A stretch of DNA of 64,000 bases from Komagataeibacter swingsii (GTDB lineage: Bacteria > Pseudomonadota > Alphaproteobacteria > Acetobacterales > Acetobacteraceae): NCBI RefSeq assembly GCF_003207895.1, contig NZ_NKUB01000006.1, positions 1-64,000 on the forward strand, read 5' to 3'. A program made the translations under genes and the position numbers. The notes under the pieces were generated by a model, which saw only the letters and a program-made list of their open reading frames with translations, was not told where the DNA came from and searched no databases. Below, in pieces: positions 33,595-35,143 of the stretch. Position 1 is the first letter of the stretch; every line of letters starts with the position of its first letter.

Positions 33595-33746
33595 GGTTAT
33601 GGCGTTCAGGGCCGCGTGTCGCATGTGACCACCCTGTCAACAGCCATGCCCGCGCCCGGTTGTTCCGGGTGGGGCTACATCATGCGTGACCGCCCTGAAA
33701 ACCGTTTTTCAGGTTCCGGGTAGCAGCCACATGCATGTGGGATGTG

Positions 33747-34049
33747 TGGTGTCCGCGGCGGGATTCGAACCCACGGCCCCAGGATTCGTACCACTTCGGC
33801 TTTCACCGCCGCCATAGGGGTATGGCGTTCGTGGTCTGGACTGTCCCTTCACCATAAACCGCAAGCGGTTGACAGGTGCTGCCCATCCAGTCTCTACACC
33901 TTGCCGGAAAAACCGGCCTTGGCTCGGGATTGGCACGGCATTCGCCAGAGCGTTCCCCGAATTTGAGCAGATCCGCCACGTGGTTTCCCGTCGTGACGCC
34001 CAATTGCAAACCAGGAATCCTGTGCTCTATCCGGCTGAGCTACGCGGAC
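33747..34049 (-). tRNA. tRNA-Arg (anticodon CCT) interrupted by a group I intron
   Basis: The 5' exon (34049-34013) begins GTCCGCGTAGCTCAGCCGGA and ends in the anticodon CCT. The 3' exon (33786-33747) begins AATCCTGGGGCCGTGGGTTC and ends CGCGGACACCA with an encoded CCA. Joined, they give 77 nt with a 7-bp acceptor stem (GTCCGCG/CGCGGAC), a 5-bp anticodon stem (CAGGA/TCCTG), a TTCCTAA loop and a normal T-arm. The intron lies after anticodon position 36. It reads AGG arginine codons. Without recognising the intron, only half a tRNA would be found here. Confidence 0.95.
33787..34012 (-). ncRNA. Self-splicing group I intron (IC3-like) in tRNA-Arg
   Basis: The 226-nt insert has the conserved core seen in the Azoarcus tRNA-Ile intron: GACGGGAAACCACG near its start, CTCAAATTCGGGGAA (P/P4 region), ATCCCGAGCCAAG (P6/Q), AAGGTGTAGAGACTGGATGG (P7 and guanosine site), and ATGGTGAAGGGACAGTCCAG (P3/P8, S element). 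The 5' exon ends in T and the intron ends in G (33787), as group I chemistry requires. No homing endonuclease ORF is present, so it probably relies on its own fold. The subclass is assigned by motif comparison from memory. Confidence 0.93.
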
Positions 34050-34123
34050 ACACTTGGGTTTTCTAGACGAGGCCCCGCCGCGCGGCAAGATGTTTCACGA
34101 ACGGTGGGGGAATATTTCGTCCC

Positions 34124-35143
34124 TTACTGTCGCCTGCGCATCTGCTGCGCCTGCGCGCACAGCCGGGCGACGTGGCGCAGGCAGAGCACGACATCGGGGC
34201 TGCCGGTCTGCTTGCATGCCAGTTCCAGCGCCTGCGTTTCCTCCGCCGCGTGCAGCAGGGCGCTGGCCGACCAGATCGCCATGGCCTGCCCGAAGCTGTC
34301 GGTGCGTTTGAAGAATACGGGGGGACGCAACTGCCGCATGGCATCCGCCCGGCTTGCCCCCCCATCCACCGCAAGCCGTGCCCGGCGCAGCCGGTGGATG
34401 TGCGACAGCAGCACGCGCGTCAGGGCGACGGGGCTGCTGCCGTCGGTGGCCAGCGCGCGTTCGGCCGCGGCATCGGCCCCCCTGCGGTCGCCCGCCATGG
34501 CGGCAAAGGCCGCGTCTTCCAGTGATACGCCCGCCGCGTCGCCAACGCAGGCGCGCACGTCTTCCAGTCCCAGCCTGCCGCCCGTGCCGGCGAACAGGGC
34601 CAGTTTTTCCACCTCGCTGCGTGTCGCGGCCCGGTCGGGGCCGGCGCGTTCCACCATCCACCCCAGCGCATCGGGGTCGATGCCGACATCCTGCGCCGAT
34701 AGCATCTGCCGGATGGCGGCTTCCAGCGTGCGTCCTTCCTCGGGGTAACAGCCGATCACCCCGCACTGCCTGTCCTTTTCCGCAAAGGCCCGCAGTTTCG
34801 AACGCGCGGCAAGCCCCGGCGCTTCCATGATGACCAGCGTATCGGATGATTGGGCCAGGCTGCGCTGCAATGCCGCCAGCACGCTGTCGCCCGCGTCACG
34901 CAGCCAGACCACGCGACGGCCGCCGGTCAGGGCAAGGGCGGTGGTTTCTTCTTCCAGCCGGTCATGGTCATCGCGGCCCAGGATGGCGACGCGGAACGGG
35001 TCCTGCAGGTCCGGACAGACCGCCTTCGCCGCTGTCGTGGCCCGTTCGCGGATCAGGCCCGCGTCTTCCCCATGCAGGATGATGGCCCGCAGCGCGCCCG
35101 GTGCCTGCAGGGTGGCGTTGGTGCTGCGGGCATCGATCTTCAC
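34124..35143 (-). CDS. holA: DNA polymerase III delta subunit (clamp loader)
   Basis: The 339-residue HolA protein opens the beta sliding clamp within the gamma/tau-delta-delta' loader. Recognisable parts are AIILHGEDAGLIRERATTAA at the N-terminus, VVWLRDAGDSVLAALQRSLA in the second subdomain and a helical C-terminal collar domain (SSPVALTRVLLSHIHRLRRA). The start is GTG at 35141-35143. It lies 5 bp after lptE on the same strand, the conserved leuS-lptE-holA order of alphaproteobacteria. The intron-bearing tRNA-Arg lies 75 bp downstream. Confidence 0.92.
   Translation of the reverse strand: MKIDARSTNATLQAPGALRAIILHGEDAGLIRERATTAAKAVCPDLQDPFRVAILGRDDHDRLEEETTALALTGGRRVVWLRDAGDSVLAALQRSLAQSSDTLVIMEAPGLAARSKLRAFAEKDRQCGVIGCYPEEGRTLEAAIRQMLSAQDVGIDPDALGWMVERAGPDRAATRSEVEKLALFAGTGGRLGLEDVRACVGDAAGVSLEDAAFAAMAGDRRGADAAAERALATDGSSPVALTRVLLSHIHRLRRARLAVDGGASRADAMRQLRPPVFFKRTDSFGQAMAIWSASALLHAAEETQALELACKQTGSPDVVLCLRHVARLCAQAQQMRRRQ

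Follow-up and report, generated by a model that had tools for sequence, protein, structure and literature searches.

How does a bacterium obtain a functional tRNA from a gene whose two halves are held apart by more than 200 nt, and what is the sequence that separates them? The question arises in a 64-kb stretch of the Komagataeibacter swingsii genome, here called the window, where the gene for tRNA-Arg(CCU) occupies positions 34049-33747 of the minus strand, its encoded CCA included, and is split after U36. The insertion site thus lies between U36 and position 37, immediately 3' of the anticodon (Table 1). A sequence-only reading of this DNA had given the coordinates, the length of 226 nt, and a T before the intron and a G as its last base, and all of these are right to the base. 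It had also described the joined halves as a perfect 77-nt cloverleaf. The spliced exons are indeed 77 nt long and the tRNA-finder check proposed for them, carried out with ARAGORN, returns tRNA-Arg(cct), but the cloverleaf includes one G-U pair, in the T stem, so that "perfect" is only nearly right.

The gene had been expected to escape ordinary tRNA finders, and it does. ARAGORN with default settings reports 0 tRNAs in the window, and Rfam at the gathering threshold gives 0 matches there. When introns are allowed, ARAGORN finds the tRNA-Arg gene with the identical 226-nt intron; two further candidates that it proposes in the window in this mode look spurious. The suggested search with the group I intron model RF00028 had a mixed outcome: there is a match at 34018-33828 (model positions 1-253) with an E-value of 8.7e-7, computed for 601 bases (33600-34200) and 4227 families, yet its 33.4 bits stay under the gathering score of 50. 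A default Rfam scan therefore misses the intron, and at the cut-off it also misses the introns of the three relatives scanned, which have Leu, Thr and Lys hosts. A simple scan found no promoter- or terminator-like site near the gene. What is filled here is an annotation gap: default scans overlook the one tRNA-Arg(CCU) gene that was seen in this genome.

Table 1. Features of the split tRNA-Arg(CCU) gene and its upstream neighbour (positions in the window).
Feature	Position	Strand	Remarks
5' exon, tRNA-Arg(CCU)	34013..34049	-	37 nt, ending in anticodon CCU (34015-34013)
Group I intron	33787..34012	-	226 nt, final base G; RF00028 match (E 8.7e-7), paired helices
3' exon, tRNA-Arg(CCU)	33747..33786	-	40 nt, CCA encoded at its end
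Internal guide sequence GGG	33999..34001	-	Forms P1 with the CCU that ends the 5' exon; splice-site pair U-G
Possible P10	34004-34002	-	AUU, able to pair with the AAU that opens the 3' exon
P2 hairpin, GAAA loop	33975..33997	-	Pairing
P3	33970-33965 with 33884-33879 (span 33879..33970)	-	Encloses P4, P5, P6, P6a and the 5' strand of P7; covariation and pairs
P7	33892-33888 with 33843-33839 (span 33839..33892)	-	P8/P8a between its strands; covariation and pairs
P9 and second hairpin with GAAA loop	33797..33827	-	Pairs
Upstream neighbour, probably holA	34124..35143	-	tblastn match in the flanks of related loci

Is the insert a group I intron? The expected core helices, P1, P2 and P3-P9, all pair in the window sequence, the U preceding the intron is paired with an internal G, and the intron ends in G, as group I introns do. 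From 61 extracted cores, 35 related introns were selected and assessed for covariation, with the structure named from the window sequence. The 35 core rows have a mean column identity of 70% and maintain pairing in 95.6% of the cells. Both sides change in 22 of the 40 pairs, against a mean of 12.6 among shuffled sets, and none of 500 shuffles reached either this number or the observed pairing percentage. Sliding the partners by 1-3 columns left pairing in only 30-47% of the cells, a control in which the structure is favoured because it was drawn on one of the 35 rows. In P7, which we take by homology to hold the guanosine site, four of the five pairs are invariant and the fifth covaries (G-C, A-U, U-A). 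The weak element is the outer arm of P5 (helix 3), with 81% pairing and one pair that fails in 19 of 32 rows. Apart from this arm, compensatory changes back the P3-P4-P5-P6-P7-P8 core with its P3/P7 pseudoknot. In minimum free energy the precursor does not surpass shuffled sequences (z -0.95), an uninformative result; folds of this kind are unable to contain the pseudoknot. The longest stop-free stretch in the 226-nt intron is 75 codons, which leaves no room for a homing endonuclease gene, and none is encoded. The complete core, the covariation, the exact splice geometry and the tRNA-Arg(cct) call together bear out the assignment to a group I intron in tRNA-Arg(CCU).

Within the known alphaproteobacterial tRNA-Arg(CCU) family, the intron is an unexceptional member. 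It has the host tRNA and the insertion point directly 3' of the anticodon that define this family, and common descent is supported by a tree, weakly resolved overall, of 138 cores in which 35 of the 39 tRNA-Arg(CCU) rows, from several families of bacteria, form one branch (98/98), the other four falling elsewhere; the rows do not include the published Agrobacterium and Bartonella sequences. The Azoarcus tRNA-Ile(CAU) intron, of subgroup IC3, is similar in architecture, length class and anticodon-loop site but resides in a different host tRNA, a comparison made by description. Proteobacterial Leu(UAA) introns have their core in common with the window intron and differ in host and in position (34/35). 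The Azoarcus intron is named in the available parts of PMC3984707 and PMC4033280, and tRNA anticodon-loop introns are treated in those of PMC4033280 and PMC8450103. One of the papers cited here refers the tRNA-Arg(CCU) family back to Agrobacterium and to Paquin 1999. In the text available of PMC7717549, the tRNA-Arg(CCU) intron of Bartonella bacilliformis (BbgpI) self-splices in vitro and is spliced in vivo; it and the Agrobacterium intron have in common with ours the host tRNA, the site after CCU, the group I core and an alphaproteobacterial host. A table note on the genome of Asaia bogorensis, likewise an acetic acid bacterium, mentions a single tRNA-Arg interrupted by a sequence of group I-like type (PMC4596401, in part). 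Compared by description, not by alignment, and within what these partial sources tell, the Agrobacterium, Bartonella and Asaia introns show no difference of substance from ours.

If the gene is split, is there another way to read AGG? The genome has 46 matches to the tRNA model RF00005. At these loci ARAGORN finds no CCT anticodon, the arginine anticodons there being TCT, CCG and ACG. The supposition that this is the only CCU gene thus holds in so far as no other CCU tRNA is seen in the assembly. This is a draft of 113 contigs from which Ile(GAU) and Ala(UGC), whose genes usually lie within rRNA operons, were also not recovered, so the absence of a second CCU gene is not absolute. An intact tRNA-Arg(UCU) gene is present, and tRNA-Arg(UCU) can read AGG by ordinary wobble. 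In 29 long open reading frames of the window, taken mechanically, 76 of the 14,401 codons are AGG. This usage is not negligible, and splicing is therefore probably needed for efficient AGG reading, in a housekeeping role.

The arrangement recurs in the genus. Full-length matches of 91-100% identity occur in 19 of 19 genus genomes, our own included and five of them assemblies in 4-8 contigs, and no intron-free tRNA-Arg(CCU) appeared among the matches of this search at E <= 0.001. The upstream neighbour is by our reading probably holA, and tblastn matches to it lie within the flanking sequence fetched at 19 of 19 genus loci and at 14 of 25 loci from other genera. Within the genus the intron looks like a vertically inherited, tolerated passenger.

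How would the tRNA be made? Group I introns splice by an established mechanism initiated by guanosine. In the precursor, the guide GGG would form P1 with the anticodon CCU, with U-G as the splice-site pair. The first attack, after U36, would come from a free guanosine bound at P7, and the second, behind the last G of the intron, from the freed U36. The two halves, ligated in this step, would make up a normal tRNA-Arg(CCU). We are almost certain that the insert is a group I intron of the known tRNA-Arg(CCU) family, in the sole CCU gene seen, and that it is spliced by this P1/P7 route, and we infer its catalysis from the self-splicing of a relative and from the established group I mechanism.

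Several other readings deserve attention. The RNA alone might be inactive or slow, with splicing in the cell occurring only with the help of a protein. Group I introns are presumed to need helpers to some extent in vivo (PMC7717549, in the part available), and the unremarkable fold energy of the precursor goes in the same direction. Yet the Bartonella tRNA-Arg(CCU) relative splices by itself in vitro (same source), and here all the core helices are in place together with two GAAA-capped hairpins, so we hold a strict dependence on a helper to be unlikely. The most sceptical reading, that the insert is a dead insertion in a tRNA pseudogene, faces the full-length matches across all 19 genus genomes, the failure to see any other CCU tRNA and the compensatory changes in the cores of relatives; we give it practically no credence.

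The earlier reading had gone further in another direction, stating that splicing controls AGG decoding if this is the only CCU tRNA. A switch of this kind, in which splicing efficiency would set the rate of AGG decoding, agrees with the single CCU gene seen and with the use of AGG in the window. But the intact tRNA-Arg(UCU) offers a second reader of the codon, the intron is present in 19 of 19 genus genomes, nothing suggesting regulation was seen in the Rfam scans and the simple promoter and terminator scan, and relatives of the intron are spread over many different tRNAs, as is more to be expected of a passenger than of a switch. Regulation thus appears very improbable, and the claim is not supported. 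We retain self-splicing of a group I intron out of tRNA-Arg(CCU) as the preferred reading.

How widespread is this intron? We built a covariance model of the core (R1), trained on 35 introns including that of the window, which as a training member scores 164.5 bits. R1 matches occur in 115 of 249 genomes of the family Acetobacteraceae, in 49 of 385 genomes of the class and in 43 of 398 of the phylum, counts that are lower bounds given the strict filters and that all include the genome of the window. Introns of this type had been said to occur in "a few bacteria"; the family and class figures contradict this, although the host is not always tRNA-Arg. Thirteen of the 115 family genomes match twice, one second match being a remnant. 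In genome G185, which also has a whole tRNA-Arg gene, a truncated second copy (L116:1942-2100; R1 29.8 bits) comprises the 3' part of the intron and the 3' exon of tRNA-Arg. An integrated element may have left it behind as a duplicated attachment site.

Which tRNAs are occupied? Loci were fetched from part of the matches, with preference for hosts other than tRNA-Arg, so that the sites given below should be read as an inventory rather than a census. Hosts were labelled for 137 of 143 loci. A strict script assigned 106 of these labels, 9 were given by hand, and 22 loci were taken as Arg(CCU) because they match the window gene over its full length; six loci were dropped (L147, L196, L211, L213, L216 and L260). 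Ties in a number of placements were settled, by script or eye, from tRNA identity and the conserved intron end. ARAGORN anticodon calls for the relatives (Phe, Ser, Ile, Val, His and others) were rejected on reading the exons, as were its calls of His for some tRNA-Arg(CCU) genes. The 137 loci comprise Leu(UAA) at 34/35 (52 loci), Arg(CCU) at 36/37 (39), Thr(GGU) at 36/37 (12), Lys(UUU) at 35/36 (6) and 34/35 (2), Leu(CAA) at 33/34 (5) and 34/35 (4), Lys(CUU) at 35/36 (4), Arg(UCU) at 34/35 (3) and 36/37 (1), CAU tRNAs at 33/34 (3) and 36/37 (2), Thr(CGU) at 36/37 (2) and two odd Leu loci. Introns with the same core occupy fourteen combinations of tRNA and position, in Leu, Thr, Lys, Arg and CAU tRNAs of Proteobacteria and Actinobacteria. 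In two intron-bearing tRNA-Leu genes (L113 and L207, genomes G042 and G129) no regular U33 anticodon loop was found and function is uncertain. Three Leu(CAA) introns (L188, L212 and L215) are 355-431 nt long, the extra length lying at least partly between the splice site and P2.

Scanning named genomes by pattern added 53 loci, each with an R1 match. Placement in Lys(UUU) at 34/35 is allowed by 39 of them, from Microbacterium, Nesterenkonia, Tsukamurella, Prauserella, Frankiales and other Actinobacteria, with the reservation that for many of these the script tied this host with Asn(GUU) or Ser or ranked one of those first; many also have one mismatch in the anticodon stem. The host of twelve loci is Arg(CCU), Leu(UAA), Thr(GGU) or, for Magnetospirillum molischianum, Thr(UGU) at 34/35, and two had no placement. 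How much of this is new? Introns of 22-49 nt are too short to be group I introns. On this ground we do not count as prior reports the cyanobacterial "group I introns" of that length in Arg, Gly and Lys tRNAs given in the available part of PMC5733544. Apart from that doubtful source, the bacterial hosts reported in the literature searched, as far as available and 1990s primary papers aside, are Leu(UAA), fMet, Ile(CAU) and Arg(CCU). Part of the host range found here may thus be unreported, 1990s primary papers again aside, and we claim no priority.

What allows one core to sit in so many tRNAs? The letters just 5' of P2 track the host: GGG for CCU, GAG for C32-U33-U34, GCC for GGU, GCG for CGU and GGAG for CUYU. 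We examined 163 introns (137 labelled, 17 named and 9 viral), of which 146 have a defined guide, 14 have none and 3 had no P2 loop found. The guide fits the host within the 14 bases before P2 in 145 of the 146, where by our estimate a given triplet has a chance of about one in five per such stretch; the keys were read from the same data, though they are dictated by pairing. The sole exception, L106, has GGG and still pairs by wobble, and GGG stands beside P2 in 39 of 39 tRNA-Arg(CCU) introns. A separate pairing score, available for 134 of the 137 introns, is 3.00 on their own hosts and at most 2.44 in 2000 label permutations, which ignore relatedness. Several host classes score equal or higher on the exon of another host, partly because the score prefers C-G over U-G at the splice site.

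The tree of cores has 24 changes of host label, for a minimum of 14 and a mean of 75.8 after shuffling. Leu(CAA) introns at 34/35, from Proteobacteria outside the class, nest among Leu(UAA) introns (100/99, a group of nine), which on the sequences looks like a move between two leucine tRNAs. Read by eye, this first tree does not join rows from the same genome as sisters and thus shows no recent jump within a genome. A second tree took in 25 named loci out of the 53, among them 16 of the 39 from Actinobacteria, and left out eleven rows with long branches; its 16 Actinobacteria rows make up a single branch (100/99). Resolution is weak in both trees, with unsettled bootstraps and many weak deep forks.

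Are viruses among the carriers? In Gordonia phage Daredevil, part of the intron is matched by BLAST and R1 scores 115.8 bits. By our reading this intron (L243:838-1150) lies within an unannotated tRNA-Lys(UUU)-like gene with an unusual T loop; ARAGORN by default reports no tRNA there, and the classifier left a viral-contig copy (L371) unplaced. The gene is near integrase and HNH endonuclease genes. A pattern scan of viral contigs gave at least 120 stretches, 80 of them listed, with 82 R1 matches among these. The best 59 of these 82 were classified, 32 in tRNAs (two of them low-scoring) and 27 unplaced; by eye, several of the unplaced ones resemble introns of protein genes. The 32 placements are Leu(UAA) (14), Arg(UCU) at 34/35 (7) and 33/34 (1), Arg(CCU) (3), CAU (2), Asn(GUU) (2), Ala(UGC) at 34/35 (1), and Lys(CUU) at 35/36 (1) and 36/37 (1). 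In one viral stretch (L340), where ARAGORN reports 25 tRNA genes, a gap within the array contains a copy of the intron that the classifier assigned to Asn(GUU). At viral loci such as L316, L325 and L388 the core is flanked, by eye, by apparent protein-coding exons that are near-identical across several contigs. With such flanks, the intron lineage may extend beyond tRNA genes.

We tentatively propose, with confidence a little short of even, that the window intron belongs to a single bacterial lineage of very small introns which has spread into at least ten tRNA isoacceptors, in fourteen combinations of tRNA and position (33/34 to 36/37), swapping the three- or four-letter guide beside P2 while its core stayed recognisable, and that phages with intron-bearing tRNA genes might have served as vehicles between genera and phyla. 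A GAG guide fits any tRNA with C32-U33-U34, so that Leu(UAA), Lys(UUU), Arg(UCU), Thr(UGU) and Ala(UGC) would all be open to reverse splicing by a single intron RNA. The spread of group I introns by reverse splicing has circumstantial evidence and no direct experimental support according to the part of PMC3984707 available. With guides that suit many different tRNA sites, these related cores, some of which lie in viral contigs, provide ready donor and target pairs for a direct test of reverse splicing, and this wider host pattern matters more than the single feature of the window. The group I introns of tmRNA genes, which occupy four T-loop subsites mostly without a homing endonuclease (PMC11915505, in part), are alike in using several nearby subsites of one tRNA-like loop; the loop is the T loop there and the anticodon loop here, and the likeness is an analogy only.

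Plasmids carry the intron as well. Near-identical intron-bearing tRNA-Leu(UAA) genes, with at least 80% query coverage, were found in 1257 of 72,556 plasmid records, mostly enterobacterial according to the organism table. One is pCTX-M3 (NC_004464.2), where L241:2924-3222 is an unannotated, apparently intact tRNA-Leu(UAA) gene with an intron scoring 153.5 bits with R1. Its core groups weakly with the Leu(UAA) introns of the family and class of the window, which as a sequence grouping hints at the origin of that plasmid segment. The gene lies about 650 bases from aac(3)-IId, and the same neighbour is predicted in L244, the only other region examined.
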